Below, piece by piece: positions 25,878-45,448 of a DNA stretch of 55,118 bases. Within the stretch, counting starts at the first letter, position 1. Each line of letters opens with the position of its first letter. The notes beneath the pieces were generated by a model. The model was not told the origin of the DNA. It saw nothing but the letters and a program-made list of their open reading frames with translations, and made no database searches. The stretch is taken from NCBI RefSeq assembly GCF_025717005.1, contig NZ_JAOVZU010000012.1:36108-91225 (forward strand). The letters are read 5' to 3'. Both the position numbers and the translations under genes were made by a program. The DNA comes from Actinotalea endophytica (GTDB taxonomy: Bacteria > Actinomycetota > Actinomycetes > Actinomycetales > Cellulomonadaceae).

Positions 25878-25990
25878 CGCATGCACCTCTTCGTACATCG
25901 AGTCGTCGCGGCGCGGGCGCCGTTGCCTCACGCCGCCGGCAGCTGATTCTCGCCGGTTCCGGTTTTCATCGGCCAGGACCGGTGTATCGC

Positions 25991-26059: not shown

Positions 26060-27262
26060 GTGAGCGAGACGACGGCAGCGGCGCCGGTCCGGCGACGTCC
26101 CCGCGACCGCCGTCAGGCGATCGAGGCGGCCGCCGCCGCGGCGTTCTCGGAGCACGGCTACCACCGCGTCGCGATGCAGGACGTCGCCGACGCCGTCGGG
26201 ATCTCCGCGGCAGCGCTCTACCGGCACTTCGACAACAAGTACGACCTGTTCCGCGAGGTGGCGCTGGGCCTCGCGGCGCGGTTGGCCGACGCCGTCGCGA
26301 CCGTCGAGGACGACCCGGGGCCGACCGCGGAGTCCGCTCGGGCGAACCTCGACGCGGTGCTCGACGCGATCGCCGGCGGGACGATCGCGCTGCGCGGCTC
26401 CGGCGGCATCTACCGCTGGGAGAGCCGCTACCTGCACCCCGTGGACCGTCACGCGCTCGGCGCCGAGTTCGCGGCGCTGCGCCGTCGCGTCGCGCGGCCG
26501 ACCGGCGTCCTGCGACCGGACCTCGACGCCGAGACGCTCGACCGCGCGGCGCTCGGCGCCCTCAGCGTGATCGCGAGCATCACGACGCACCGGACGGCGA
26601 TGCCGGCCGCCCCGCTGCGCGCGCTGCTCCGGGACGCCTCGGTGCGGGTCCTGATGGGGACCGTGGTGCCGGGGCCGGTCGCGGTGGACGCTCCGTACGA
26701 GCACGCCGTCCGGCCCCGTCGGCGCCGCGAGCAGCTCGCCCAGGCGGGCGTGGAGCTGTTCGCCGAGCGCGGGTACCACGAGGTGACGATCGAGGACATC
26801 GCGACCGCCGTGGGGCTCACGCCGTCCGGCGTGTACCGCCACTTCAGCGGTAAGTCCGAGATCCTGCGCACGGCCTGCGTGCGCGCCGCGTCTACGCTCG
26901 ACCAGGCCGCCGACGAGGCGCTGAGCAGGGACGACGGGCGCGAGGCGCTACGGATCCTCGAGTCCGCCTACATCGACTTCGCGGTGGACGACCGGGACCT
27001 GATGGGCGTGTACGTCGCCGACGTCGGCGCGCTGGACGTCGAGGACCAGCGCGGGCTGCGACGCCTGCAGCGCGCGCACGTCGACGACTGGGTCGAGCTG
27101 CTCGGTCGGGTCCGCCCGGAGCTCGAGGCGCGCGAGGTGCGGTTCCTGGTGCACGCGGGCTTCAACGTCGTCGCCGACGTGAGCGTCGCGCTGCGGCACC
27201 AGCCGGCGCCGGTGGCCAAGGCGTGGATCGCGCCGATGCTCGAGGCGGTCCTCGGCGTGTAG
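26060..27262 (+). CDS. Twin-domain TetR-family transcriptional regulator
   Basis: Regulator of 400 residues with two TetR DNA-binding domains in one chain. The first (about 15-62) has FSEHGYHRVAMQDVADAVG and ISAAALYRHFDNKYDLF; the second (about 217-265) has FAERGYHEVTIEDIATAVG and LTPSGVYRHFSGKSEIL. Each is followed by its own helical ligand-binding region. Ordinary TetR proteins are about 200 residues and bind as dimers; here one chain equals a covalent dimer. Similar fused TetR proteins occur in actinobacteria beside fatty-acid genes. It is divergent from the acyl-CoA ligase and faces the aldehyde dehydrogenase gene. The GTG start is preceded by TAGTGT at 6 nt. Its ligand could be an acyl-CoA. 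Confidence 0.88.
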   Translation: MSETTAAAPVRRRPRDRRQAIEAAAAAAFSEHGYHRVAMQDVADAVGISAAALYRHFDNKYDLFREVALGLAARLADAVATVEDDPGPTAESARANLDAVLDAIAGGTIALRGSGGIYRWESRYLHPVDRHALGAEFAALRRRVARPTGVLRPDLDAETLDRAALGALSVIASITTHRTAMPAAPLRALLRDASVRVLMGTVVPGPVAVDAPYEHAVRPRRRREQLAQAGVELFAERGYHEVTIEDIATAVGLTPSGVYRHFSGKSEILRTACVRAASTLDQAADEALSRDDGREALRILESAYIDFAVDDRDLMGVYVADVGALDVEDQRGLRRLQRAHVDDWVELLGRVRPELEAREVRFLVHAGFNVVADVSVALRHQPAPVAKAWIAPMLEAVLGV

Positions 27263-27332: not shown

Positions 27333-28832
27333 CTACTGGTGCGAGCCCTTCGACCGGCCGTGCAGCATCGGGATCATCCTGGCCACCATGTGCACGTCCT
27401 TGTCGGTGCGCTCCATCGACAGGTCGACCATCGCCTTGCGCGTCTGGCGTGCCACCGACTTCGCGGTGCTGAACTCGCGCAGCCCGTCGGCGCCGTGGAT
27501 CCGGCCGAAGCCCGACTCCTTCACGCCGCCGAACGGCAGCGCGCCGACCGACGCGAAGCCGAGCACGGAGTTGATCGAGACGGCGCCGGTGTGCAGCGCC
27601 GCTGCGGCCCGGTCGGCCGTGGCCCGGCTGCGGGTGAACACCGCCGCGGCGAGCCCGTACGGCGTGGCGTTCGCGCGTCGCACGGCCTCGTCGAGTGACG
27701 TGACCCGGTTGACGACCACGAGCGGCCCGAACGTCTCGCACTGCATCGCGTCCGACATCTCGTCGACGTCCGTGATGACGATCGGCGCGATCGTCCGGCC
27801 CCCGATGCTCTCCGGACCGCCGAGCACCGCGGTGCCGGACCTGAGCGCGTCCTCGACGTGGCGTCGCACGACGTCGGTCTGGGCGGCGAGGGTCATCGGA
27901 CCGTAGTGCGCGTCCGGTCCGCCGGCCCGCAGCCGCGACGCACGCTCGACCACGCGCCGCACCAGCTCGTCGCGGACCGAGTCGACGACGTAGACCCGCT
28001 CGACCCCGGCGCAGGTCTGTCCGGCGTTGCCCATGCCGCCCAGGACGATGAAGTCGGCCGCGACGTCGAGGTCGGCGTCGGCCGCGACGAGCACGGCGTC
28101 CTTGCCGCCGCACTCGGCGACGATCGGCGTGAGTCGCTGCGACGCCGTCGCCATGACCTTCTTCGCGGTCGCCGTCGAGCCGGTGAACGCGATCTTGTTC
28201 ACCCTCGACGCGGCGAGCGCGGACCCGGTCGACCCGTCGCCGGTCACGGTGACGAGCACGTCGTGGCCCACGGTGCGGGCCCACTGCTCGGCGAGCCAGA
28301 CGGCCGGGCCCGGGGTGAGCTCGCTGGGCTTGAAGACCACCGCGTTGCCCGCGGCGAGCGCGTAGGAGATCGAGCCCATCGGGGTGTACAGCGGGTAGTT
28401 CCACGGGCCGATCACGCCGATCACGCCGTACGGCTCGTAGCCGACGGTGGCGCGCTGGTTGAAGTTCATCAGGCCGGCCTTGACCTTCTGCCGCCGCAGC
28501 ACCCGCTTGGCGTTCTTCGCCGCCCAGTCCAGGTGCCCGAGCGTCAGCATGATCTCGATCAGCGCGTCGCTCCCGGGCTTGCCGGTCTCGGCCGAGATGA
28601 CCTCGGCGAGCTCCTGGGCGTTGGTCGCGATCGCGGCCTTGAACCGGACCAGGTGGTCGCGGCGGCCGCGGAAGCCCTGCTCGCGCCACCAGGTTGCGCC
28701 GGCGCGGGCGCGCTCGACGGCGGCGTCCACGGCGGCCCGATCGCCGAGCGGGTAGGTGGCGACGGTGGATCCGTCCCCGGGGTTGCGCGTGGTGACCTGC
28801 ATCGCGTGCGGGGTCTCGTCCAGGAGGGCCAT
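27333..28832 (-). CDS. Aldehyde dehydrogenase (NAD(P)-dependent)
   Basis: Cytosolic ALDH of 499 residues that oxidises an aldehyde to an acid or, less likely here, a semialdehyde. The catalytic Cys is C274 in AGQTCAGVERV, and the general-base Glu is E240 in VAECGGKDAV, 34 residues apart as in the family. IGPWNYPLYTPMGS is the conserved N-terminal block, and FTGSTATAKKV binds the cofactor. The product acid could feed the acyl-CoA ligase, whose promoter shares the same motif. The start has GGAGTAGGAG upstream. It is divergent from a second TetR gene across 110 bp of regulatory DNA. Confidence 0.94.
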   Translation of the reverse strand: MALLDETPHAMQVTTRNPGDGSTVATYPLGDRAAVDAAVERARAGATWWREQGFRGRRDHLVRFKAAIATNAQELAEVISAETGKPGSDALIEIMLTLGHLDWAAKNAKRVLRRQKVKAGLMNFNQRATVGYEPYGVIGVIGPWNYPLYTPMGSISYALAAGNAVVFKPSELTPGPAVWLAEQWARTVGHDVLVTVTGDGSTGSALAASRVNKIAFTGSTATAKKVMATASQRLTPIVAECGGKDAVLVAADADLDVAADFIVLGGMGNAGQTCAGVERVYVVDSVRDELVRRVVERASRLRAGGPDAHYGPMTLAAQTDVVRRHVEDALRSGTAVLGGPESIGGRTIAPIVITDVDEMSDAMQCETFGPLVVVNRVTSLDEAVRRANATPYGLAAAVFTRSRATADRAAAALHTGAVSINSVLGFASVGALPFGGVKESGFGRIHGADGLREFSTAKSVARQTRKAMVDLSMERTDKDVHMVARMIPMLHGRSKGSHQ

Positions 28833-28893: not shown

Positions 28894-28917
28894 CGTGTCG
28901 GGCTTCGCAACAGGGAA

Positions 28918-28933
28918 TCTAATCCGGGTTAGA
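28918..28933 (+). promoter_or_regulatory. Palindromic operator at the second TetR gene
   Basis: TCTAATCCGGGTTAGA is symmetric at 14 of 16 positions. It overlaps the -10 element TAGAAT (28930-28935), so binding would block transcription, as expected for TetR autorepression. A related half-site, TCTAAT, occurs at the acyl-CoA dehydrogenase promoter. Confidence 0.6.
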
Positions 28934-28935
28934 AT
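28930..28935 (+). promoter_or_regulatory. -10 element of a leaderless TetR transcript
   Basis: TAGAAT matches TATAAT at 5 of 6 bases and ends 7 nt before the ATG at 28943. A weak -35, GCAACA (28907-28912), lies 17 nt upstream. Confidence 0.55.
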
Positions 28936-28942
28936 GGTCGCG

Positions 28943-32728
<3,786 letters not shown>

Positions 32729-32742
32729 GTCCTGCTCCTTCG

Positions 32743-33951
<1,209 letters not shown>

Positions 33952-33959
33952 GTCGGTCC

Positions 33960-35120
33960 TCACAGTCCGAGGCCCCGGCCGACGATCTCCTTCATGATCT
34001 CGGTCGTGCCCCCGTAGATGGTGGTGATGCGGGCGTCCTCGTAGTCCCGCGCGATCCGGTACTCGCGCATGTAGCCGTAGCCGCCGTGCAGCTGCAGGCA
34101 GCGGCCGACGACGTCGACGTACTGCTCGGTGGTGTGGAACTTCGCGGCGGCGGCGTCCTCCGGGGTGAGCCGGCCGTCGTTGTGCCGGGCGAGCAGGGCG
34201 TCGATCCAGGCGCGGCTCGCCCGGACCGCGGTGACCATCTCGGCGAGCTCGAAGCGGGTGTTCTGGAACGAGCCGATCGGTTTGCCGAACGCGAAGCGCT
34301 GCTTGACGTAGGCGAGCGTCCGTTCGAGGACGCCTTCGGCGGAGGCGACGGCCGCGGCCGCGATCGAGATGCGCTCCTGCGGGAGGTTGCGCATCAGGCC
34401 GGCGAACCCGCTGCCCTCGTCGCCGAGCCGGTTGGCGACCGGGACGCGGACGCCGGTGAACGCGAGCTCGCTGGTGTCCTGCGCGTGCAGCCCGATCTTG
34501 TCGAGCTTGCGCCCGCGGGAGAACCCGGGGGAGTCGGTCGGGATGACAAGCAGGCTGAGGCCGCGGTGCGGGTCCTCGCCGGTGCGCACGGCGGTGACGA
34601 CCAGGTCGGCGTTCTGCCCGTTGGAGATGAAGATCTTGGACCCGTCGACGACGTAGTCGTCCCCGTCACGCACGGCCGCCGTGCGGATCCCGGCGAGGTC
34701 GCTGCCCGTGCCGGGTTCCGACATGGCGACGGCCACGATCTGCTCGCCGGCCGCGATGCCGGGCAGCCAGCGCAGCTTCTGCTCGTCGTCGGTCAGGTCG
34801 GTGAAGTACGGGATCACGATGTCGTTCGACAGCGCGATGCCGGCCATGCCGGAGGACACGGGGTTGCGGGCGAGCTCCTCGCCCATGACGGCGTTGAACC
34901 GGATGTCCTCGGACCCTCCGCCGCCGTACTTGTCCGGGATGCCGAACCCGAGGATCCCGGCCTCTGCGGCCTTGGTGAAGAGCCAGCGGTCGACCTTGCC
35001 TTCCTCGTCCCACCGGTCGGCGTTCGGGCGCGCGTGCTGCTCCACGAACGCCCGCACCATGTCGCGGAACTGCTCGTGCTCCTCCTCGTAGAGGTCGCGA
35101 GGCCCGACGATGTCGCTCAT
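33960..35120 (-). CDS. Acyl-CoA dehydrogenase, first gene of beta-oxidation operon
   Basis: FAD enzyme of 386 residues, the typical length, that makes 2-enoyl-CoA and passes electrons to ETF. Key parts are the FAD-contact segment [40 protein letters not shown], and the C-terminal [19 protein letters not shown] and [15 protein letters not shown], where the Glu of GTTE is in the catalytic position of many family members. It heads an operon with thiolase, FadB and NMO. The promoter has TATAAA about 37 nt upstream of the ATG, beside a TCTAAT half-site. It is divergent from the second acyl-CoA operon, with 148 bp between. Confidence 0.95.
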
Positions 35121-35157
35121 CCCGTCTCCGATCGCCCTTGATCTCGAGTTGCGAGTT

Positions 35158-35173
35158 TTTATACCATATTAGA
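35158..35173 (-). promoter_or_regulatory. Acyl-CoA dehydrogenase promoter with TetR-like half-site
   Basis: On the minus strand TCTAATATGGTATAAA contains a strong -10, TATAAA (35163-35158), preceded by TCTAAT. It matches the palindrome at 28918 at 11 of 16 positions. This AT-rich island stands out sharply from the surroundings. The rest of the 148-bp divergent gap holds TTAACAGGCATTAA (35233-35246), possibly part of the opposite promoter. Confidence 0.5.
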
Positions 35174-35268
35174 AACTGCGATGGCGAGCACAAGTCTGCC
35201 GCTGGATCGGACGACCTGCTCGCCGAAGCGTTTAACAGGCATTAAGTGATCACGCAAAGGAGCGTGGC

Positions 35269-36057
35269 ATGGGTGCGGGAACCTCGCGACGCGGCGGCGC
35301 CCCCGGGCGGCTGACCGGGCGGGTGGCCGTCGTCACCGGCGCCAGCCGAGGCATCGGGCATGCGATCGCCGGGCGCCTCGCCGCGGACGGCGCGTCCGTC
35401 GTCCTGACCGCGCGGTCCGCGGACGGCCTCGCCGCCGCCGCGCAGTCGCTTCCGGCCGACCGCGTCCGCGTCGTCGCAGGTCGCGCCCAGGACGCCGAGC
35501 ACCGACGTGAGGCCGTCGCGACGGCCGTCCGCGAGTTCGGGGGGCTCGACATCCTGGTGTGCAACGCCGGCATCAACCCGGTGTACGGACCGCTCGACGG
35601 GCTCGACCTCGACGCCGCGCGCAAGGTGCTCGAGGTCAACGTCCTGGGCACGCTGGGCTGGGTGCAGCAGGCGTGCGCCGCGGGTCTCGGCACGCGCGCC
35701 GGTGCCGCGGTGCTGACCATGTCGTCGGTCACGGCCTCGGTCCCGTCGCCGGGCATCGGCTGGTACGGCGTGAGCAAGGCCGCCGTGTCCCACCTGACAG
35801 TGACCCTGGCCGCCGAGCTCGGCCCGAGGATCCGGGTGAACGCGCTCGCGCCCGCGGTCGTCCGGACCCAGTTCGCCCGCGCGCTCTACGAGGGCCGCGA
35901 GGACGAGGTCGCCGCGCGCTACCCGCTCGGCCGGCTCGGCACGCCCGAGGACGTCGCCGACGCGGCCGGGTTCCTCTGCTCCGACGAGGCCGGGTGGATC
36001 ACCGGGCAGGTGCTCGGCCTCGACGGCGGGCTGCTCGCGGCGGGGGGCACAGCGTGA
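35269..36057 (+). CDS. SDR-family oxidoreductase (LvaD-like candidate)
   Basis: Short-chain dehydrogenase of 262 residues. The NAD(P) loop is TGASRGIG (23-30), NAG appears in VCNAGINPV, and the catalytic Ser-Tyr-Lys are in MSSVTASV and WYGVSKAAVSH. The C-terminal ITGQVLGLDGGLLAAGG is typical of FabG-like enzymes. It opens a 10-kb operon behind AAAGGAG. Followed by an acyl-CoA dehydrogenase and an APH-type kinase, it matches the order of functions in levulinate catabolism, where LvaD reduces a 4-keto acyl-CoA to the 4-hydroxy form. This assignment is inference. A 3-hydroxyacyl dehydrogenase role is the alternative. Confidence 0.9.
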   Translation: MGAGTSRRGGAPGRLTGRVAVVTGASRGIGHAIAGRLAADGASVVLTARSADGLAAAAQSLPADRVRVVAGRAQDAEHRREAVATAVREFGGLDILVCNAGINPVYGPLDGLDLDAARKVLEVNVLGTLGWVQQACAAGLGTRAGAAVLTMSSVTASVPSPGIGWYGVSKAAVSHLTVTLAAELGPRIRVNALAPAVVRTQFARALYEGREDEVAARYPLGRLGTPEDVADAAGFLCSDEAGWITGQVLGLDGGLLAAGGTA

Positions 36058-37274
36058 GCGCCCGGGAGCGCGGCCTCACCACCGACGAGGTCGTCGCCCG
36101 CACCCGGCGGTTCATCCGCGACGTCGTCCTTCCGGCCGAGCCCCGCACGGGGACCGCGCTCGACCCGGCGAGCCGTCGCGACCTCCAGCGGCGCGCGCGC
36201 GAGGCGGGCGTGTTCGCGCCGCACGTCCCGGTCCGGCTCGGTGGGCTGGGGCTGCCGCTGACCGAGTGGTCCGCGGTCTTCCAGGAGGCCGGGTACTCGC
36301 CGATCGGCGCCGCCGCGCTCAACTGCATGGCCCCCGACGAGGGGAACATGCTGCTGCTCGAGACGATCGCCGACGAGCGGCAGCAGGAGCGGTACCTGGC
36401 GCCGCTCGCCGCGGGCGAGGTGCGCTCGTGCTTCGCGATGACCGAACCGCACCCCGGCGCCGGCTCCGACCCGGCCGCGCTCGCGACGGTCGCCCGGCGC
36501 GTTCCCGGCGGCTGGGTCCTGGACGGCGAGAAGCGCTTCATCTCGGGTGCCGACGAGGCCGACTTCGCGATCGTGATGGCCCGGACGCCCGAGCTGGGCG
36601 ACGACGCCGCGACCCTGTTCCTGGTGCCGATGGCCGCGCCCGGCGTCGAGGTCGGCCACCCGATCCACACGCTCGAGACCGCGATCACGGGCGGCCACCC
36701 GCACGTGCGGTTCGCCGGCTGCCGGGTGAGCGACGACGACGTGCTCGGCGCGCCGGGCGAGGGGTTCCGGCACGCCCAGGTCCGGCTCGGCCCGGCCCGG
36801 CTGACCCACTGCATGCGCTGGCTCGGCCTGGCCCGCCGGGCGCAGGACACCGCGCTCGACCGGGTGCGGCAGCGCGAGCTGTTCGGCTCGCGGCTCGCCG
36901 ACCTCGGCCTGGCCCAGGGTCTGATCGCCGACTCGGAGATCGACCTCACCACGTGCTCCGCGGTGATCGACCGGGCCGCGCGGCTGCTCGCGCGGGACCC
37001 CCGCGCCGGCGCGACCGCGTCGTCGATCGCCAAGGTGCACTGCTCGGAGGCGGTCGGACGTGTCGTGGACCGGGCCGTGCAGCTGTGCGGCGGGGACGGG
37101 GTGACCCTCGAGCTCCCGCTCGTCGCGTTCCTCAACGAGGTGCGCCCGTTCCGGGTCTACGACGGGTCCAGCGAGACCCATCGGTGGGCGATCGCACGCC
37201 GCGCCGTCGCGCGCCGCGGCCGTGAGGTCGACGCGGGCGAGGCGGTCCTCGACACCCCGGAGGCACGCCGATGA
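36054..37274 (+). CDS. Acyl-CoA dehydrogenase of ACAD10/11 type (LvaC-like candidate)
   Basis: FAD-dependent enzyme of 406 residues. It has CFAMTEPHPGAGSDPAAL and GWVLDGEKRFISGADEADF for flavin and substrate contact, and QRELFGSRLADLGLAQG in the C-terminal domain. The end reads VYDGSSETHRWAIARRAVA, a form of the ACAD10/11 signature (DGxxExH), with Glu as likely base. In levulinate catabolism LvaC converts 4-phospho-acyl-CoA so that it can enter beta-oxidation; human ACAD10/11 are fusions of such a dehydrogenase and an APH-type kinase. The kinase follows immediately here. GTG start overlaps the SDR stop by 4 bp, and its own stop overlaps the kinase ATG. Role inferred from context. Confidence 0.9.
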   Translation: MSARERGLTTDEVVARTRRFIRDVVLPAEPRTGTALDPASRRDLQRRAREAGVFAPHVPVRLGGLGLPLTEWSAVFQEAGYSPIGAAALNCMAPDEGNMLLLETIADERQQERYLAPLAAGEVRSCFAMTEPHPGAGSDPAALATVARRVPGGWVLDGEKRFISGADEADFAIVMARTPELGDDAATLFLVPMAAPGVEVGHPIHTLETAITGGHPHVRFAGCRVSDDDVLGAPGEGFRHAQVRLGPARLTHCMRWLGLARRAQDTALDRVRQRELFGSRLADLGLAQGLIADSEIDLTTCSAVIDRAARLLARDPRAGATASSIAKVHCSEAVGRVVDRAVQLCGGDGVTLELPLVAFLNEVRPFRVYDGSSETHRWAIARRAVARRGREVDAGEAVLDTPEARR

Positions 37275-38368
37275 GCGTGCTCGTCTCCACCCCCGACGAC
37301 CTCGAGGTCGTGCGGGACGCCGACGCCGCCGCGCGGGCCACGCAGTCCCCGCTGCTCGTGCTGGAGCCGCTCGAGGGCTTCCTCGACACGATCGGCGTGC
37401 CGCGCGGCGAGCTCGCGTGGCGCCGGATCGGCGACGGGCAGGCGAACGTCACCTACGAGCTGCGTCGCGGTGGCGAGCGCCTCGTGCTGCGACGCGGCCC
37501 GCGCCCGCCCTACCCGCCCTCGGCGCACGACATGCTCCGCGAGGCCCGGGTCGTGACGGCGGTCACCGCGGCAGGGGTGCCGGCCCCGCGCGTCCTGGCC
37601 GTCTGCGAGGACACCTCGGCGCTGGGCGTGCCCTTCTACCTGATGGCCTTCGTCGAGGGTCACGTGGTCACCGACCGCCTCCCGGCGGGCTTCGACGGCC
37701 CGGCCGCGAGGTCCGCGATGGTGCGCTCCGCCGTCGACGCACTGGCCGCGCTGCACGCCGTGCCGCTCGACGGCGACGTCGCCCGGCTCGGCCGGCCGGT
37801 CGGCTACCTCGAGCGGCAGGTGCGCAGGTTCGCCGAGCTGTGGCCGATGAACACGCGGCGGTCCGTGCCGCTGGTCGACGAGGTGGGTGCACGGCTCGCC
37901 GCGACGATCCCGACGCAGGGGCGGTCGAGCGTCGTGCACGGCGACTACCGCCTGGGCAACCTCATGCTCGACGCCCCCGACCGCGTCGCGGCGATCCTCG
38001 ACTGGGAGATGGCGACGCTCGGCGATCCCCTGGCCGACCTGGGCTACCTGGTCGCCACGTACAGCCAGGCGGACATCCCACGCACCCCGATGGACCTCAC
38101 ACCGGTCACCGCGGCACCGGGCTTCCCCACCCGGCAGGACATCGCGGACCACTACGCCGAGCGGACCGGCGCCGACCTGTCGGTCCTGCCCTGGTACGAG
38201 GCGCTCGCCCTGTGGAAGTCCGCGATCTTCTGCGAGGCGATGCTCACCCGCTGGCTCGACGGCCAGCGACCTGGCGACACGTTCGCGCCGTCCCTCGTGG
38301 CCGGCGTCCCACAGCTCGCCGACGCCGCGCACGCGGCGCTGGCGCGCCTGGCGAAGGGAAGCCGATGA
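37271..38368 (+). CDS. APH-family small-molecule kinase (LvaA/ACAD10-kinase-like candidate)
   Basis: Phosphotransferase of 365 residues with the aminoglycoside-kinase fold. The N-lobe has WRRIGDGQANVTYELRR as nucleotide loop and LVLRRGP with the Lys-equivalent position. The catalytic loop is VVHGDYRLGNLML (H223, D225, N230), and the metal site is ILDWEMATLGDPLADLG. Stand-alone antibiotic resistance is unlikely given the context. It sits between an acyl-CoA dehydrogenase and ETF genes with 4-bp overlaps on both sides, as expected for a kinase that phosphorylates the 4-hydroxyl of an acyl-CoA (LvaA and the kinase domain of ACAD10/11). I see no gene for an LvaB-like partner. Confidence 0.88.
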   Translation: MSVLVSTPDDLEVVRDADAAARATQSPLLVLEPLEGFLDTIGVPRGELAWRRIGDGQANVTYELRRGGERLVLRRGPRPPYPPSAHDMLREARVVTAVTAAGVPAPRVLAVCEDTSALGVPFYLMAFVEGHVVTDRLPAGFDGPAARSAMVRSAVDALAALHAVPLDGDVARLGRPVGYLERQVRRFAELWPMNTRRSVPLVDEVGARLAATIPTQGRSSVVHGDYRLGNLMLDAPDRVAAILDWEMATLGDPLADLGYLVATYSQADIPRTPMDLTPVTAAPGFPTRQDIADHYAERTGADLSVLPWYEALALWKSAIFCEAMLTRWLDGQRPGDTFAPSLVAGVPQLADAAHAALARLAKGSR

Positions 38369-39141
38369 AGATCCTCGTCCTGGTGAAGGTGGTCCCGGAC
38401 ACCTACAAGAGCCGCGCGCTGTCGCTCGAGACCGGGCTCGCCGACCGGAACGCCGAGGACGCGGTCCTGGACGAGATCGGCGAGCGCGCCCTCGAGGTCG
38501 CGCTCGCCCACGCCGATGCCCACACCGGTACCGAGGTCGTCGTCCTGGCCATGGCCCCCGAACTCGCGCAGGCCAGCCTGCGCAAGGCGCTCGCGATGGG
38601 CGCCTCGGCGGCGGTGCAGGTCACCGACGAACGGCTGGTGGGTGCTGACGTCGTGCTGACCGCACAGGTGCTCGCCGCCGCGGCCAGGCACCTGGGCTTC
38701 GACCTGCTCGTCGCCGGCAACGCGTCCACCGACGGGTCCGGGGGAGCGGTGCCGGCGGCCATGGCGGAGCTCCTCGCGGTGCCGTGCGCCACGTCGCTCA
38801 GCGAGGTCGAGCTCACCGAGGCCGCGGTCACGGGCACCCGGGTGACCGAGGGCGCCGCGCTCCGGATCGAGGCGCCGCTTCCGGCGGTCATCTCGATCAC
38901 CGAGGCGCTCCCCGACGCGCGGCTGCCCAGCTTCAAGGGGATCATGGCGGCGAAGAAGAAGCCGCTCGACGCCATGGCGCTCGACGACCTCGACGTGGAC
39001 CCCGACGCCACCGACGCCGCGAGGTCGATCATGATCGCCGTCCGCGAGCGGCCGCCGCGGACCGCGGGCGTCAAGATCGTCGACTCGGGCGACGCCGGTG
39101 CTCGGCTCGCCGACTTCCTGGTCGAGAACCGGCTGGCGTGA
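38365..39141 (+). CDS. etfB: Electron transfer flavoprotein beta subunit
   Basis: ETF beta of 258 residues, an AMP-containing subunit that pairs with EtfA to accept electrons from acyl-CoA dehydrogenases. The N-terminus [17 protein letters not shown] is diagnostic. [14 protein letters not shown] follows, and the recognition-loop region is [18 protein letters not shown], where the dehydrogenase docks. The nucleotide-binding segment is [20 protein letters not shown]. The ATG overlaps the kinase stop (4 bp), and etfA starts 11 bp downstream. Such physical coupling suggests this ETF is dedicated to the acyl-CoA dehydrogenases encoded here rather than being the general cell ETF, but only one copy is visible in the window. 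Confidence 0.95.
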
Positions 39142-39152
39142 GGGAGACCGAG

Positions 39153-40124
39153 ATGACCCACGAGACGATCCTGGTCCTCGCCGACCGCGCCCCGGACGGC
39201 GCGCTGGCGTCCTCCACCGCCGGCCTGCTCGCGGCCGCCGCGTCGATCGGCACACCGGTCCTGCTGATCGTCGGCTCCGGCGCCTCGGCGCAGACCGACG
39301 TGGCGGCCGCCCTCGGTGCCGGCCGGGTGCTCGTCGCGCCCGCCGAGGGCGGGGCGTACGCGGTGTCGTCCGTCGACGCGCTCGCGGCGGCCGCCGAGCT
39401 CGTGCGGCCGGCCGCCGTCCTGGCCTCGCACTCGGTGGAGGGGCGGGAGGTCGCGGCCCGCTACGCCGCCCGGTCCCGCTCGGCGCTCGCGGTCGACGCG
39501 GTGGGCGTCTCGCGTGACGACGAGGGCGTCGTCGTGCACCACTCGGCCTACGGCGGGGCGTACCTCGTCGACTCCGCGGCCACGTTCGGCGCGCCGGTCG
39601 TCACCGTTCGCCCCGGCGCGATCGACGGCCGCGCGCCCGCGGTGCCCGACGCGCAGGTCGAGGAGATCCAGGTGCGCCCGTCCGGTCTCCCGGCGGTCAC
39701 GGTCCGGTGGGTCGAACCGGTCGAGGTGGCCACGGAGCGGCCCGAGCTGCGCGGGGCGGCCAAGGTCGTGTCCGGCGGGCGCGGGCTCGGATCGGCCGAG
39801 CAGTTCGTGCTGGTCGAGCAGCTCGCGGACGCCCTCGGCGCCGCGGTGGGCGCCTCGCGTGCGGCGGTCGACGCGGGCTACGTCCCGGCGTCCTGCCAGG
39901 TGGGGCAGACCGGGGTGTCGGTGTCGCCGCAGCTGTACGTCGCGCTCGGCATCTCCGGCGCGATCCAGCACCGTGCCGGGATGCAGACGGCGAAGACGAT
40001 CGTGGTGGTCAACAAGGATGCGGACGCCCCGCTGTTCTCGATCGCGGACTTCGGGGTCGTCGGCGACGTGTTCACCGTGGTGCCGCAGCTGATCTCGGCG
40101 CTCGGCGAACGGCGGCGGTCATGA
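39153..40124 (+). CDS. etfA: Electron transfer flavoprotein alpha subunit
   Basis: ETF alpha of 323 residues, which carries the redox-active FAD. The N-terminal half ([11 protein letters not shown]) pairs with EtfB. The FAD-binding C-terminal domain is clear: [59 protein letters not shown] and [20 protein letters not shown]. Start ATG 39153 follows GGGAG. Its stop overlaps the start of a membrane cytochrome b gene (ATGA), so the electron acceptor may be made in fixed ratio with ETF. The usual ETF-quinone oxidoreductase is not seen in this window. Confidence 0.96.
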
Positions 40125-41566
40125 CCGTGACGGTGCGGCAGGGGCTGCCGCGTCGCCCGGGCGGGCCGGCCTGGCCGCCGAGGGCTCCCGGCGGGGTGGC
40201 GGTCGGCGTCGAGGCCAACGGCATCGAGCCCGACGGCATCGGGGCGGAGGGCATCGGGGCGGACGGCATCGGGGTCGGCGGCACCGGGGTCGGCGGCGTG
40301 GCCGTCCGGGACGAGCCCGTCCCGGTCCTGGGCCAGGCGCGCCGCCGTGGCCTTCCTCGCGTCGCGCCGTCGGGTGCGGACCGGGCCGCGGCTGCACCGG
40401 CGGTGGAGCCGGCCGCGCTGACGGCGGTCCCGCTGCGCCGAGGGTTGCCCCGCGTGGTCGGCGGTGAGCCCTGGCCACCCGCGGGCGAGGTCGTCGTCGC
40501 GTCCGCACCCGCGCGGCCGCCGGCCTCGGCTCTCGGCGCCGCCGGCCGAGCCGAGCCCGACCTCGTGATGGACCGTGGCGCCGCGGCCGTGGTCGGTGTC
40601 GCCGGATCCGTGGCCGAGGTCGCCGACGGGTCCGCTCCTCGCGGGCGCGGCCGATCACGACCCGCGAGCGCCGAGCTCACGCAGCGGCGTGCCGGCGTGC
40701 GCCGGGCGGCCGTCTGGACCGGCGCACTCGTCCTCGCCGGTGCGGTGGCCGTGCTGGTCGCGCGCCTGCTCGTGCAGTTCGCGCCGGTGCAGGACTTCCT
40801 CGCCGCCTACCCGGGTTCGTACCCGCCGCCCGAGGGCGCGCCGGTCGGCATCCCGGTGTGGTTGTCCTGGCAGCACTTCTTCAACGTGTTCCTGATCTCG
40901 ATGATCCTGCGCACCGGGCTGCAGGTGCGTCGCCAGGCGCGACCGGAGGCGTACTGGGCCAAGCGCTCCGAGCCGCGCACCCGGATCAGCCTGGTCGCCT
41001 GGACGCACCAGGCGCTCGACGTGCTGTGGGTCACGAACGGGGTCACCTACGTGGTGCTGCTCGTCGCGACCGGCCAGTGGATGCGGACCGTGCCGACCAG
41101 CTGGACCGCGTTCCCGAACGCGGTGTCCACCGCGCTGCAGTACCTGTCGCTGGACTGGCCGGTCGAGGACGGGTGGGTCTACTACAACAGCCTGCAGCAG
41201 CTGTCCTACACGGTGACGGTGTTCGTCGCGGCGCCGCTGGCGATCGCGACCGGCGTGCGGATGAGCATCTTCTGGCGCGGCGGACCGCGATGGGACCGGG
41301 TCTACCCGATCGCCTTGGCCCGGCGCATCCACGTCCCGGTGATGCTCTACTTCGTCGCGTTCATCGCCTCGCACGTGGCGATGGCGTTCGCGACCGGGGC
41401 GCGCCGGAACCTCGACCACATGTTCGCCGCGCGGGACGACGTGAGCTGGGTGGGCTCGGTGCTCTTCCTCGTGGCGCTCGCCGTGATCGCCGGGGCACTC
41501 GTCGCCGTCCGGCCGATCCTCGTCGCGCCGGTCGCGAGCCGGTTCGGGGCGGTGAGCGGCCGATGA
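40121..41566 (+). CDS. Di-heme cytochrome b (b561/DUF4405-like) with repetitive N-terminal extension
   Basis: Membrane protein of 481 residues. The C-terminal 280 have about five hydrophobic segments with four histidines placed to hold two b hemes: H252 (SWQHFFNVF), H296 (WTHQALDVL), H404 (RIHVPVML) and H418 (ASHVAMAF). H404 and H418 are 14 apart, a usual cytochrome b spacing. It resembles the cytochrome b subunit of membrane dehydrogenases that reduce or oxidise quinone. The first 200 residues are disordered: GLPR-type motifs at 8-11, 77-80 and 108-111, two followed by GG-x-WPP, plus a Gly/Ile pentapeptide repeat. Coupled to etfA, it may pass electrons from ETF to menaquinone (inference). 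Confidence 0.82.
40220..40294 (+). repeat. Five tandem 15-bp repeats in cytochrome b gene
   Basis: Units of the form GGCATCGGGGCGGAG repeat five times with substitutions, encoding [20 protein letters not shown] and GTGVG. The 15-bp period keeps the frame, so copy-number changes would only alter linker length. Confidence 0.85.
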
Positions 41567-41742
41567 TCGCCCGGCTCCGCACCACGATCCGAGCCCGTCC
41601 CGGCCGCTCGGCCCCCTCCGGCCGCCCGCCCTCGCCGGGCCACCCCGCCCGGCCGGGCCGCGCGACCTCGCCCGTCCGCTCCGCCCCGCCCGGCCACTGC
41701 GCCCCGCCCGACCGCCCGACCTCGAGGGAGTACCGCCCGTGA
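41563..41742 (+). CDS. Small Arg/Pro/Ser-rich ORF between cytochrome b and prpD
   Basis: Open frame of 59 codons, [15 protein letters not shown] at the start and [12 protein letters not shown] at the end. I do not recognise it. It is basic and rich in Pro, Arg, Ser and Ala, without a membrane segment. Support for coding is positional: its ATG overlaps the cytochrome stop (ATGA), and its TGA overlaps the prpD GTG (GTGA), the same 4-bp coupling used throughout this operon. Against it: low complexity and a weak ribosome site (GGTGAG). It may serve only to carry ribosomes from cytochrome b to prpD, or be chance in GC-rich DNA. Confidence 0.4.
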
Positions 41743-43271
41743 AGGCCTACACCGTCCGCGCCCACCGATCCGCCGAGGCGCTGCCGACCAAGGAGCAGCT
41801 GGCCTGGCGGATCGCCGAGGTCGCCGCCGACCCCGTCGAGGTGGCGGCGGACGTCGCCGACATGGTGGTCAACCGGGTGATCGACAACGCGGCCGTGGCG
41901 GCGGCGTCCTACTCGCGGGGTGCCCCGTCCGCCGCGCGCGCCCAGGCTCTGGCCCACCCACCCTCGTCGGGGGGTGCCGGTGCGTGCGTCGTCGGCGAGC
42001 CGCTGACGACCCGGGTGAGCGCGGAGTGGGCAGCCTGGGCGAACGGCGTCGCGGTGCGGGAGCTGGACTACCACGACACCTTCCTCGCGGCCGAGTACTC
42101 CCACCCCGGGGACAACATCCCGCCGGTCGTCGCGGTCGCGCAGCACGCGGCGGCTCGTGGCCTCACCGGCCGGGACCTGCTCCGCGGCATCGTCGCCGGC
42201 TACGAGATCCAGATCGACCTGGTCAAGGCGATCAGCCTGCACGAGCACAAGATCGACCACGTCGCGCACCTCGGCCCGAGCGCGGCAGCGGGGATCGGCG
42301 CGCTCCTCTCGCTCGATCCCGGGACGATCTTCCAGGCGGTCGGCCAGGCGCTGCACACGACCACGGCGACCCGGCAGTCGCGCAAGGGCGAGATCTCCTC
42401 GTGGAAGGCCTACGCACCTGCCCTGGCCGGCAAGCTCGCGGTCGAGGCCGTCGACCGCGCGATGCGCGGGCAGACCTCGCCCACCCCGATCTACGAGGGC
42501 GAGGACGGTGTCATCGCCTGGCTGCTCGGCGGCTTCGACGCGCGCTACGAGGTCCGGCTGCCGGAGCCCGGCGAGCCGAAGCGGGCGATCCTCGACTCGT
42601 ACACGAAGGAGCACTCGGCGGAGTACCAGTCGCAGGCGTGGATCGACCTGGCGCGCCGGCTGCACCGCGAGCACCCGGAGGTGGCCGACCCCGAACGCGT
42701 CGAGCGCATCGTGCTCGCGACCTCCCACCACACCCACTACGTGATCGGCTCCGGCTCGGCCGACCCGGAGAAGTACGACCCGGGCGCGTCCCGCGAGACG
42801 CTCGACCACTCGCTGCCGTACATCGTCGCGGTCGCGGTGCAGGACGGCGTCTTCGACCACGAGGCGTCCTACCGGCCCGAGCGTGCCTCGCGGCCGGACA
42901 CCGTGGCCCTGTGGCAGCGGATCTCTACGACCGAGGACCCCGAGTGGACCCGGAGGTACCACTCGAACGACCCGGCGGAGAAGGCGTTCGGCGGGTCGAT
43001 CGAGGTGACCTTCACCGACGGGACGGTGTTCCGGGACGAGATCGCGGTCGCCGACGCGCATCCGCTGGGCGCCCGTCCGTTCGCGCGAGCGGACTACGTG
43101 GCGAAGTTCCGCCGGCTCGCCGAGGGCGTCGTCCCCGAGACCGAGATCGACCGGTTCCTCGACGTCGCGCAGCGCCTGCCCGAGCTCACGTCCGACCAGC
43201 TCGGGCAGCTGTCGTTCACGGTCGACCCCGCGTCGCGGGCTGCGGCTCCGGCACCGGCCGGACTTCTCTAG
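41739..43271 (+). CDS. prpD: 2-Methylcitrate dehydratase PrpD
   Basis: Methylcitrate-cycle enzyme of 510 residues that dehydrates 2-methylcitrate to 2-methyl-cis-aconitate. MmgE/PrpD family blocks are clear: [98 protein letters not shown] and [13 protein letters not shown]. The GTG at 41739 is supported by GAGGGAG 8 nt upstream. PrpB follows 12 bp after the stop, then PrpC. The cycle turns propionyl-CoA and oxaloacetate into pyruvate and succinate. The second hydration step needs an aconitase, which is not here. Confidence 0.94.
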
Positions 43272-43283
43272 GAGGGGATCGGG

Positions 43284-44186
43284 ATGCTCTACGCCACCTC
43301 GACGCCGGCGGACAAGCGCCGTGCCTTTCGCGCCAGGCTCGCGACCGGTGAGCTGCTCCGGGTGCCGGGTGCCTTCAACCCGCTGTCCGCCCGGCTCATC
43401 GAGCAGAAGGGGTTCGACGGCGTCTACGTCTCCGGCGCCGTGCTCTCCGCGGACCTCGGCCTGCCCGACATCGGCCTGACGACGCTCACCGAGGTCGCCG
43501 GCCGGGCCAAGCAGATCGCCCGCACCACCGAGCTCCCCGCGCTCGTCGACGCGGACACCGGCTTCGGCGAGCCGATGAACGTCGCCCGCACCGTCCAGGA
43601 GCTCGAGGACGCCGGCGTGGCCGGGATGCACATCGAGGACCAGGTGAACCCGAAGCGGTGCGGTCACCTGGACGGCAAGGAGGTGGTGGACCGGGAGACC
43701 GCACTGCGCCGGGTGCGCGCGGCGGTCGAGGCGAGGCGCGACCCCGACTTCCTGGTCATGGCGCGCACCGACATCCGCGGGGTCGAGGGCCTGGACGCCG
43801 CAGTCGACCGGGCCAAGGCGCTGGTCGACGCCGGGGCCGACGCGATCTTCCCCGAGGCGATGGCCACGCTGGCCGAGTTCGAGGCGGTGCGACGGGCCGT
43901 CGACGTGCCCGTGCTCGCGAACATGACGGAGTTCGGCAAGTCCGAGCTGTTCACCGTCGACCAGCTGCGCGACGTCGGCATCAACATCGTCATCTGGCCC
44001 GTCTCGCTGCTGCGCCTGGCGATGGGCGCCGCCGAGCGGGGCCTCGACTCGCTCGTGCGGGACGGGCACCTGGCCAACCGGCTGCCCGAGATGCAGCACC
44101 GCGCCGACCTGTACGAGCTCCTCGACTACGAGGGCTACAGCCGGTTCGACGGCGGTGTCTTCACCTTCACCGTCGCCAAGGACTGA
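43284..44186 (+). CDS. prpB: 2-Methylisocitrate lyase PrpB
   Basis: Lyase of 300 residues that splits 2-methylisocitrate into pyruvate and succinate. The isocitrate-lyase superfamily active-site loop is K124-R125-C126-G127-H128 in QVNPKRCGHLDGK, with Cys as catalytic acid. GFDGVYVSGAVLSADLGLPD near the N-terminus and DADTGFGEPMNVARTV bind Mg and substrate. Length fits PrpB, not the longer isocitrate lyase AceA. It lies 12 bp after prpD with GGAGGGG as ribosome site, and 86 bp before prpC. Confidence 0.95.
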   Translation: MLYATSTPADKRRAFRARLATGELLRVPGAFNPLSARLIEQKGFDGVYVSGAVLSADLGLPDIGLTTLTEVAGRAKQIARTTELPALVDADTGFGEPMNVARTVQELEDAGVAGMHIEDQVNPKRCGHLDGKEVVDRETALRRVRAAVEARRDPDFLVMARTDIRGVEGLDAAVDRAKALVDAGADAIFPEAMATLAEFEAVRRAVDVPVLANMTEFGKSELFTVDQLRDVGINIVIWPVSLLRLAMGAAERGLDSLVRDGHLANRLPEMQHRADLYELLDYEGYSRFDGGVFTFTVAKD

Positions 44187-44235
44187 CCCGCTCCGGCACC
44201 GCCGAAGCGAACGATCCCGCCTCCACGACGTTCCG

Positions 44236-44264
44236 GCCACCACGAAGTTCCCGCCACCACGAAG
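44236..44264 (+). repeat. Short direct repeat upstream of prpC
   Basis: GCCACCACGAAG occurs at 44236-44247 and again at 44253-44264, 17 bp apart. The second copy includes the AAG of the prpC ribosome site (AAGGAG). Likely a small local duplication; regulatory meaning unknown. Confidence 0.6.
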
Positions 44265-44272
44265 GAGTGACG

Positions 44273-45448
44273 ATGGGCGACACCACCGAGATCAGGAAGG
44301 GCCTCGCCGGCGTGACGGTGGACCACACCGCCGTGTCGAAGGTCAACGTCGAGACCAACTCGCTGCTGTACCGCGGCTACCCGGTGCAGGAGCTCGCCGC
44401 GATGCGGTCGTTCGAGGAGGTCGTGTACCTCCTGTGGCACGGCGACCTGCCGACGCCCGACCAGCTGAAGGACTTCGTCCGGCGCGAGCGTTCCCGGCGT
44501 GCGCTCGACCCGGACCTGGTGCGCATGCTCGACGCGCTGCGCGACGACGCGCACCCGATGGACGTCGTGCGGACCGCGGTGAGCGTGCTCGGCGCGGACG
44601 ACCCGGACGCGTGGGACAGCGACCCCGAGGCGGTCCGGGAGAAGGCGCTCACCCTGTTCGCCAAGCTCCCGGCGGTGGTCGCCCACATCCAGCGGCACCG
44701 GCGGGGCCTGCCGAGCATCGAGCCGCGGCACGATCTCGGCTACGCCGCGAACTTCCTCTGGATGACGTTCGGCGAGGTGCCGTCCGAGGTCGTCCGGAAG
44801 GCGTTCGACGTGTCGATGACCCTCTACGCCGAGCACTCCTTCAACGCCTCGACCTTCACGGCCCGCGTGGTGACCTCGACGCTGTCGGACTACTACAGCG
44901 CCGTCGTGGCCGCGATCGGCGCGCTCAAGGGTCCGCTGCACGGCGGCGCGAACGAGGCGGTCATGCGCACCTTCGACGAGATCGGCTCGGCGGACAAGGT
45001 GGTGCCCTGGCTCGAGGACGCGCTCGCCCACAAGCGCAAGGTGATGGGCTTCGGGCACCGCGTCTACAAGCGGGGCGACTCGCGGGTCCCGACGATGAAG
45101 GCCGCGCTCGACACGCTCGTCGCGCACTTCGAGCGCCCCGACCTGGCCGACCTCTACACGACGCTGGAGTCGGAGTTCGTCACCCGCAAGGGCATCTACC
45201 CGAACCTCGACTACCCGTCGGGGCCCGCGTACCACCTGATCGGGTTCGACACCTCGGTGTTCACCCCGGTGTTCGTCGCCTCCCGGGTCGCGGGCTGGAC
45301 GGCGCACATCCAGGAGCAGCTCGCGGACAACTCGCTGATCCGCCCGCTCAGCGCCTACAACGGCAAGCCCGAGCGGCACATCCGCGGGTACGTGCCCGAC
45401 GCCGCCGCACTCGAGGCGATGAGCCGCCAGGAGGAGCTCGCGGGCTAG
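44273..45448 (+). CDS. prpC: 2-Methylcitrate synthase / type II citrate synthase PrpC
   Basis: Synthase of 391 residues that condenses propionyl-CoA with oxaloacetate. Citrate-synthase active-site regions are present: LYAEHSFNASTFTARV, ALKGPLHGGANEAVMRTFDE (substrate His), KVMGFGHRVYKRGDSRVP (second His), and the C-terminal Arg in RPLSAYNGKPERHIRGYV. The start LAGVTVDHTAVSKVNVETN and SLLYRGYPVQELA match methylcitrate synthases of actinobacteria and Bacillus. Its place after prpD and prpB makes propionyl-CoA the likely substrate, although such enzymes also accept acetyl-CoA. AAGGAG precedes the ATG. No prpR-type regulator is seen; the operon may be controlled with the beta-oxidation genes. Confidence 0.94.
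   Translation: MGDTTEIRKGLAGVTVDHTAVSKVNVETNSLLYRGYPVQELAAMRSFEEVVYLLWHGDLPTPDQLKDFVRRERSRRALDPDLVRMLDALRDDAHPMDVVRTAVSVLGADDPDAWDSDPEAVREKALTLFAKLPAVVAHIQRHRRGLPSIEPRHDLGYAANFLWMTFGEVPSEVVRKAFDVSMTLYAEHSFNASTFTARVVTSTLSDYYSAVVAAIGALKGPLHGGANEAVMRTFDEIGSADKVVPWLEDALAHKRKVMGFGHRVYKRGDSRVPTMKAALDTLVAHFERPDLADLYTTLESEFVTRKGIYPNLDYPSGPAYHLIGFDTSVFTPVFVASRVAGWTAHIQEQLADNSLIRPLSAYNGKPERHIRGYVPDAAALEAMSRQEELAG

Follow-up and report, generated by a model that had tools for sequence, protein, structure and literature searches.

A putative 4-hydroxy fatty acid catabolic module with its own electron transfer flavoprotein and cytochrome b in Actinotalea endophytica

Gene content and distribution of the locus

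In a stretch of 55,118 nucleotides from Actinotalea endophytica (assembly GCF_025717005.1, contig NZ_JAOVZU010000012.1, positions 36,108 to 91,225; here, the window), ten open reading frames (ORFs) follow one another on the plus strand at positions 35269-45448. They encode a short-chain dehydrogenase/reductase (SDR), an acyl-CoA dehydrogenase (ACAD), a kinase of the aminoglycoside phosphotransferase (APH) fold, the two subunits of an electron transfer flavoprotein (ETF), a cytochrome b, a small ORF, and the methylcitrate cycle enzymes PrpD, PrpB, and PrpC. This row is part of a larger block of about 21 kb (24297-45448), together with the genes of an acyl-CoA ligase, regulators of the TetR family, and a beta-oxidation operon that runs divergently. 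We propose, with a probability of roughly 0.6, that the genes form a self-sufficient module acting on 4-hydroxy fatty acids (and, via the SDR, 4-oxo fatty acids) with its own ETF-cytochrome exit. All ten ORFs had been named in a previous sequence-only reading of this DNA; all are present, and Pfam and NCBIfam searches match the gene names assigned, the small ORF being without a family:

35269..36057, plus strand: SDR oxidoreductase in the LvaD position (Pfam PF13561, 1.1e-54)
36054..37274, plus strand: ACAD with a GTG start (PF00441/02770/02771)
37271..38368, plus strand: APH-fold kinase (PF01636, 3.6e-46)
38365..39141, plus strand: etfB, ETF beta subunit (PF01012)
39153..40124, plus strand: etfA, ETF alpha subunit (PF00766, PF01012)
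40121..41566, plus strand: b561/HyaC-like membrane cytochrome b with a low-complexity N terminus (weak PF01292)
41563..41742, plus strand: Pro/Arg-rich ORF of 59 amino acids (no Pfam or NCBIfam family)
41739..43271, plus strand: prpD, 2-methylcitrate dehydratase (NF042438, 5e-249, 827 bits, below the 950-bit cut-off)
43284..44186, plus strand: prpB, methylisocitrate lyase (TIGR02317, above cut-off)
44273..45448, plus strand: prpC, 2-methylcitrate synthase (NF010636, above cut-off; the start codon at 44273 is our choice)

As noted in the earlier reading, the SDR, ACAD, and kinase genes lie in a row with 4-bp overlaps. Such overlaps occur at six of the nine junctions (SDR/ACAD, ACAD/APH, APH/etfB, etfA/cytochrome b, cytochrome b/small ORF, and small ORF/prpD), and at the remaining three the genes are separated by 11, 12, and 86 nucleotides. 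The 59-amino-acid ORF is probably no conserved gene. We rejected it as a functional gene because it has no family, because tblastn gives weak, chance-like matches alone, and because a GntR gene stands at this place in six of seven Demequina loci.

The distribution of the locus was followed in the 80 loci that ranked best by ACAD similarity among 263 relatives, with one genome per species; some of these loci are short, and the flanks extend up to 10 kb, less in some. The order SDR-ACAD-kinase is found in 70 of the 80 loci and ACAD-kinase in 76. The window's layout recurs in seven Demequina loci at 63-91% protein identity, and in Isoptericola without prpD and prpB there. Because the order of the triad recurs so often and the layout returns in Demequina, the gene row is not a chance arrangement. 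A ligase gene lies at most 2.5 kb upstream in 43 of the 80 loci, and divergent beta-oxidation genes are present in 13 (seven Demequina, one Isoptericola, and five Microbacterium loci). Of these 13 loci, 11 hold the etfB-etfA-cytochrome b set, which was found in none of the remaining 67; L074, one of the two without it, ends just past the kinase. The prpDBC genes follow in 7 of the 80 loci, and prpC alone in one more.

Within the source family, a kinase match (E<=1e-30) exists in 34 of 150 genomes, A. endophytica included. One of the other family kinases is close (71% identity), the remaining 32 are 36-40% identical, and none of the 16 congeners examined matches at the same threshold. This patchy distribution suggests that the block spread horizontally and is possibly portable, which would place a bacterial 4-hydroxy-acid route within a complete catabolic block of that kind.

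An ACAD of one branch paired with a kinase of the other

According to the accessible part of its description (PMC12440821), the ACAD domain of mouse ACAD11 uses R626, H634, R637, and the catalytic D753, and elimination by ACAD10/11 requires FAD but no electron acceptor. The counterparts of these four residues in the window ACAD are R244, H252, R255, and D370. The set is invariant in all 83 related ACADs (window included) and in all 27 ACADs of the ACAD10/11 clade; because it is kept among proteins only about 35% alike, the same chemistry is likely. We therefore predict from these residues that the window ACAD is a 4-phosphoacyl-CoA phosphate-eliminating enzyme.

In a tree of 60 ACADs, the ACAD10/11 clade, with human ACAD11, has a support of 98, and the window ACAD falls outside it together with an ACAD encoded beside an NCBI-named lvaB gene on a Pseudomonas aeruginosa plasmid; because the outgroup branch is very long, the tree gives no evidence that the remaining rows are monophyletic. 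The window ACAD is 46-47% identical to this lvaB-linked ACAD, and the identities to human ACAD11 are 33-34% for the window ACAD and, over the aligned part, 36% for the lvaB-linked one. We considered the window ACAD as an ACAD10/11 orthologue and rejected this, since the bacterial members with 52-57% identity to human ACAD11 form another clade. Of the 30 loci fetched from the family, 27 hold a separate pair whose ACAD belongs to that clade, with the same 52-57% identity (L003-L030 except L020). Among the available structures, we take PDB entry 2wbi to be human and 8v3u and 8v3v to be mouse. The identity of ACAD10/11 to LvaC is printed as 62% and 56% in the part of PMC11342911 available to us, which conflicts with the 36% of the lvaB-linked ACAD to human ACAD11. 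Should LvaC of strain KT2440 belong to the ACAD10/11 clade, "lva side" here is to be understood as the side of the plasmid ACAD whose gene adjoins the NCBI-named lvaB.

For the kinase of mouse ACAD11, the accessible part of PMC12440821 names D220 and N225. The window kinase, whose PDB matches are 9o56, 3dxp, and the ACAD11 kinase, retains these residues as D225 and N230, along with an arginine of helix alphaC, R90. The catalytic D and N and the D of the DWE motif are conserved in all 78 kinases compared (five of the 83 ACADs having no kinase match of sufficient length beside them). The position beside the alphaC glutamate is R in all 78 window-type kinases and in all 27 partners of ACAD10/11-clade ACADs, and it is Q, E, and Q in three LvaB-partnered kinases. 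This arginine is counted at position 83 of the chain (84 by the offset seen for the other residues), not 86, and its match to the published CoA-contacting R86 is by description only. A second arginine, R176, does not separate the kinase types, since Thermus also has it. In a tree of 44 kinases, the three LvaB-neighbored kinases are split from all others, including the window and ACAD11 kinases, with an SH-aLRT support of 100; within the ACAD10/11 side, the order of branching has weak support, and the branch of the ACAD11 kinase is long.

LvaB corresponds to Pfam PF19802 (DUF6285). A profile search of the whole source genome gave no match to it, upholding the previous statement that no LvaB is recognizable, and none was found in the 80 related loci. 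The window kinase is predicted to be an ACAD10/11-type, 4-hydroxyacyl-CoA kinase without an LvaB partner, and its grouping with the ACAD10/11-type kinases would explain why LvaB is absent. LvaB may make up for a CoA-binding feature that the window kinase carries in itself. The labels used before, "ACAD10/11-type" for the ACAD and "LvaC/LvaA-like" for the pair, each apply to one of the two proteins: the former suits the kinase (tree split of 100) but not the ACAD (outside the clade, support of 98), and the latter suits the ACAD with its four residues but not the kinase, which is split from the LvaB-partnered ones. One new feature of this locus is that the ACAD and its kinase belong to different branches, within a complete catabolic block; this natural pairing of an lva-side dehydrogenase with an ACAD10/11-type kinase would open the role of LvaB to experiment. 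The repeat-armed cytochrome described below is a second, potentially new element.

Because the ACAD keeps the four reported residues and the kinase its catalytic ones, phosphorylation of a 4-hydroxyacyl-CoA followed by phosphate elimination is, at the level of sequence comparison, a well-supported assignment for the pair. The two proteins might instead act on another hydroxyl group, in a branched or terpenoid acyl-CoA. The related triad of Rhodococcus sp. ZPP adjoins carboxylase subunits and an AtuA-family gene, and the ligases of relatives are just 32-42% identical to that of the window (14 best matches in 56 loci), both of which would suit such a substrate. However, the residues handling the 4-phosphate are kept, and 4-hydroxy chemistry is what the accessible parts of the literature describe for LvaA/LvaC and for ACAD10/11, so that we regard action on another hydroxyl as quite improbable.

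Proposed pathway, substrate, and electron exit

The proposed pathway also draws on the genes upstream of the SDR:

33960..35120, minus strand: ordinary, LCAD-like ACAD of the divergent operon (PF00441; PDB 2pg0, then 8w0t, a long-chain acyl-CoA dehydrogenase)
32743..33963, minus strand: thiolase (NF006090, above cut-off)
30539..32728, minus strand: FadB/FadJ-type enoyl-CoA hydratase/3-hydroxyacyl-CoA dehydrogenase (family searches)
29538..30695, minus strand: nitronate monooxygenase/FabK-superfamily enzyme (PDB closest: 6e2a and PA1024, 2gjl)
28895..29563, plus strand: TetR regulator (PF00440, PF17932; relatives 71-88% identical)
27333..28832, minus strand: aldehyde dehydrogenase (PF00171)
26060..27262, plus strand: double TetR-domain regulator of 400 amino acids, with two TetR_N stretches in one chain
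24297..25931, minus strand: FadD5-like acyl-CoA ligase, possibly equivalent to LvaE (PF00501; NF005857, 700 of 733 bits)

The sequence-only reading had omitted the ligase (24297-25931), the beta-oxidation genes (29538-35120), and the N-terminal repeats of the cytochrome. The ligase is counted in the block because in Isoptericola AK164, the sole relative examined so far upstream, a ligase 81% identical to it adjoins the cluster, and it matters because the earlier levulinate account was without any CoA-activating enzyme. Several related clusters have a relative of the double TetR regulator at the corresponding position.

In the pathway that we propose, the ligase would form the CoA ester, and the SDR would interconvert the 4-keto and 4-hydroxy forms. 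The SDR has an LvaD-like place and scores above the cut-off for NCBIfam NF005559, a "glucose 1-dehydrogenase" subfamily. The ACAD10/11-type kinase would phosphorylate the 4-hydroxyl without an LvaB partner, and the ACAD with rebound FAD would expel the phosphate to leave a 2-enoyl-CoA. Beta-oxidation would be completed by the divergent FadB/FadJ-type enzyme, thiolase, and ordinary ACAD, the electrons of the latter passing to the encoded ETF. The RxGLPR repeats of the adjacent cytochrome b may then capture the ETF, which would be oxidized into the menaquinone pool, and odd-chain products would be handed to prpDBC. The residues, family relations, gene order, and co-occurrence behind this scheme are observations, whereas the chain length of the substrate, the direction of the SDR, ETF docking, and the route of the electrons are inferences.

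With a C5 substrate, 4-hydroxyvaleryl-CoA is phosphorylated and undergoes redox-neutral elimination to 2-pentenoyl-CoA, followed by hydration, NAD-linked oxidation, and thiolysis, and no ETF is reduced. Since one thiolytic round after the redox-neutral elimination suffices, the ETF, the cytochrome, and the second ACAD would have no job on C5. The ETF-cytochrome set moreover tracks the ordinary ACAD, FadB, and thiolase genes (11 of 13 loci versus 0 of 67) and not the triad, and we infer that the substrates are longer 4-hydroxy acids. We had also considered that the ETF serves the phosphate-eliminating ACAD and rejected this: no acceptor is needed for elimination, and 69 of the 80 loci have no etfBA-cytochrome b in their flanks.

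The sequence-only reading had made the locus an operon for levulinate, 4-hydroxyvalerate, or gamma-valerolactone, yielding acetyl-CoA and propionyl-CoA, the latter passed to prpDBC. The 4-hydroxy part of this assignment is supported by the residues for phosphorylation and elimination; the levulinate or lactone substrate is not, and the ETF-cytochrome and second ACAD favor longer acids. The enzyme types are indeed those of lva, the ACAD resembles the lvaB-adjacent one, C5 acids yield propionyl-CoA, and prp genes adjoin the triad (prpDBC in 7 of the 80 loci, prpC in 8). Against this, the prp genes have their own GntR regulator in six of the seven Demequina clusters and are missing from four Microbacterium clusters (the stretch of the fifth being too short), neither LvaB nor an LvaA-type kinase is present, and the scanned cluster genes include regulators of TetR types but none of the PrpR type found in the plasmid operon. 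On balance, the levulinate assignment is unlikely.

The handover of propionyl-CoA to prpDBC is less firm than the sequence-only reading had it. The PrpD, PrpB, and PrpC families are as claimed, prpD being matched over nearly its whole length by NF042438 despite the sub-cut-off score, but the link to the triad is weak because of the GntR gene between cytochrome and prpD in the Demequina clusters (e.g., L046:15398-16057, with counterparts in L045, L048, L050, L051, and L052, all named from sequence and not by family search). No such gene was found between the two in the window or in Demequina L049. Likewise, a GntR relative (54-57%) precedes prpD in all three family loci fetched from among the 40 other prpD genomes, and none of the three genomes concerned has the kinase. 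The source genome has one prpD match (E<=1e-60), as do 41 of the 61 family genomes examined, its own included, and this sole prpD presumably serves all propionyl-CoA of the cell. The presence of prpDBC nevertheless fits odd-chain substrates.

The cytochrome scores 24.6 bits with PF01292, against a Pfam gathering cut-off of 30.1, and has no other domain. Four His residues are invariant among its homologues (12 including the window protein). In a Foldseek search with the modeled core, no PDB entry matched significantly; the best, nonsignificant match was of the HyaC type. Its N terminus carries a repeat:

40136..40480, plus strand: three RxGLPR repeats in the cytochrome N terminus (residues 6, 75, and 106)

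Full copies (RxGLPRxxGGxxWPP) stand at residues 6 and 106, the one at residue 75 being degenerate. Each of the 11 homologues has two or three copies, with the consensus RRGLPRxxGGxPWPP, in its low-complexity N terminus. The repeat profile was built from sixteen hand-picked full copies, the degenerate ones (the second of the window and that of L045) being excluded, and its eight invariant columns are partly a product of this selection. The cytochrome gene adjoins etfA in all 20 genomes examined, counting the 8 of 8 further genomes with an RxGLPR-bearing cytochrome. L177 (genome G353) has an RxGLPR cytochrome gene followed directly by a kinase gene 55% identical to that of the window, on a short contig. 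Parts of plasmid proteins mostly annotated as molybdopterin-dependent oxidoreductases (H89, H90, and H92-H98) are 38-43% identical to the cytochrome core.

These features suggest that the cytochrome is an ETF-docking respiratory exit, for which a route from ETF to menaquinone is predicted; EtfD is a published analogue. A further-reaching proposal, which we advance tentatively and at less than even odds, is that some Micrococcales oxidize ETF through a new class of membrane enzyme: a four-His, b561-like and presumably di-heme cytochrome without Fe-S or flavin, in which two or three RRGLPRxxGGxPWPP tags on a disordered N-terminal arm would capture ETF, and which travels with beta-oxidation modules, the present 4-hydroxy-acid cluster being one. 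Alternatively, the ETF-cytochrome pair may be a generic beta-oxidation unit that stands here by chance, its repeats being a membrane tether or low-complexity sequence without a partner. Such a unit would account for the absence of lva-like triad genes from the fetched stretch in seven of the eight other RxGLPR-cytochrome genomes and for etfBA-cytochrome pairs without repeats; two of the latter, L138 (C14, about 65 kb) and L140 (C14, about 165 kb), are same-genome etfB-etfA loci with a repeat-less cytochrome paralogue (44% and 49%), although the recurrence of the pairing in this genome also counts for the proposed exit. The repeat, however, recurs two or three times per protein within linkers otherwise unrelated in appearance, and in the nine genomes (of 296) that match strongly, it was found in ETF-linked cytochromes only, which makes a merely generic unit rather unlikely.

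A cytochrome serving as the sole exit for ETF, EtfD being absent, was also considered and is false: the genome encodes an EtfD-like protein. The cytochrome itself contains no CCG or Fer4_ETF_QO domain, and the genome's matches to these lie on other contigs. No ETF-linked cytochrome b of this kind, and no RGLPR motif in one, was found in the literature searched, which left subscription papers mostly outside.

The divergent region (35121-35268) between the two operons contains two short elements:

35156..35175, plus strand: divergent-promoter element TTTTTATACCATATTAGAAA
35230..35246, plus strand: near-palindrome GTTTAACAGGCATTAAG (one match in the window)

TTTTTATACCATATTAGAAA has the same form in eight Demequina/Isoptericola regions and a changed form in five Microbacterium regions, and no second site was found in the genome when up to three mismatches were allowed. 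GTTTAACAGGCATTAAG is partly kept in relatives, being clear in some only, and 3 of 100 shuffles also contain one. The two are candidates for a TetR operator or for the two promoters.

Comparison with known systems

With the lva operon of Pseudomonas, represented here by the lvaB operon on the P. aeruginosa plasmid (L037), the block shares a kinase, an ACAD with the same four residues, enzymes of the SDR and acyl-CoA ligase types, and the predicted chemistry. It differs in having no LvaB, another kinase type, TetR regulators, its own beta-oxidation set, and its own ETF and cytochrome, and no symporter was found among the cluster genes scanned. The SDR is only 35% identical to that of the plasmid operon, and the ligase is closest to the FadD5 model. 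With mammalian ACAD10 and ACAD11, the window proteins share the kinase side, the catalytic residues, and the expected redox-neutral elimination of phosphate; whereas the mammalian proteins are single chains, the window kinase and ACAD are two ORFs with a 4-bp overlap, and the ACAD lies outside their clade. The direct relatives are the actinobacterial ligase-SDR-ACAD-kinase clusters (Arthrobacter, Streptomyces, Cryobacterium, and others), which have the identical triad order but in whose fetched flanks no etfBA-cytochrome b or divergent beta-oxidation set was found.

HyaC and cytochrome b561 (PF01292) share with the window cytochrome a weak Pfam match and conserved histidines. However, HyaC adjoins a hydrogenase, while the window cytochrome adjoins ETF, has a repeat-bearing N terminus, and scores under the Pfam cut-off. 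EtfD, the mycobacterial ETF:menaquinone oxidoreductase, is likewise a membrane protein for ETF with a disordered repeat region, as far as the accessible part of PMC13083937 describes it. It has Fe-S/CCG domains and a C-terminal tail, in contrast to the four-His cytochrome b core, N-terminal arm, and different motif of the window protein. The EtfD tail has interspersed repeats, an AlphaFold3 model places ETF there, and how ETF finds its membrane acceptor is left open in that part of the structure paper (PMC13083937). The EtfD-like proteins of the class genomes have long low-complexity C-terminal tails, with repeats in 4 of 11 tails (KGLGMKGAAKAPG-like in L207 and GGSLFD-like in L188, L194, and L197). 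If the tag proposal is true, the repeat-armed cytochrome would be functionally convergent with the repeat-bearing EtfD tails, and a link from ETF to quinone whose docking motif can be read from the sequence would bear on how ETF finds its acceptor in the membrane.

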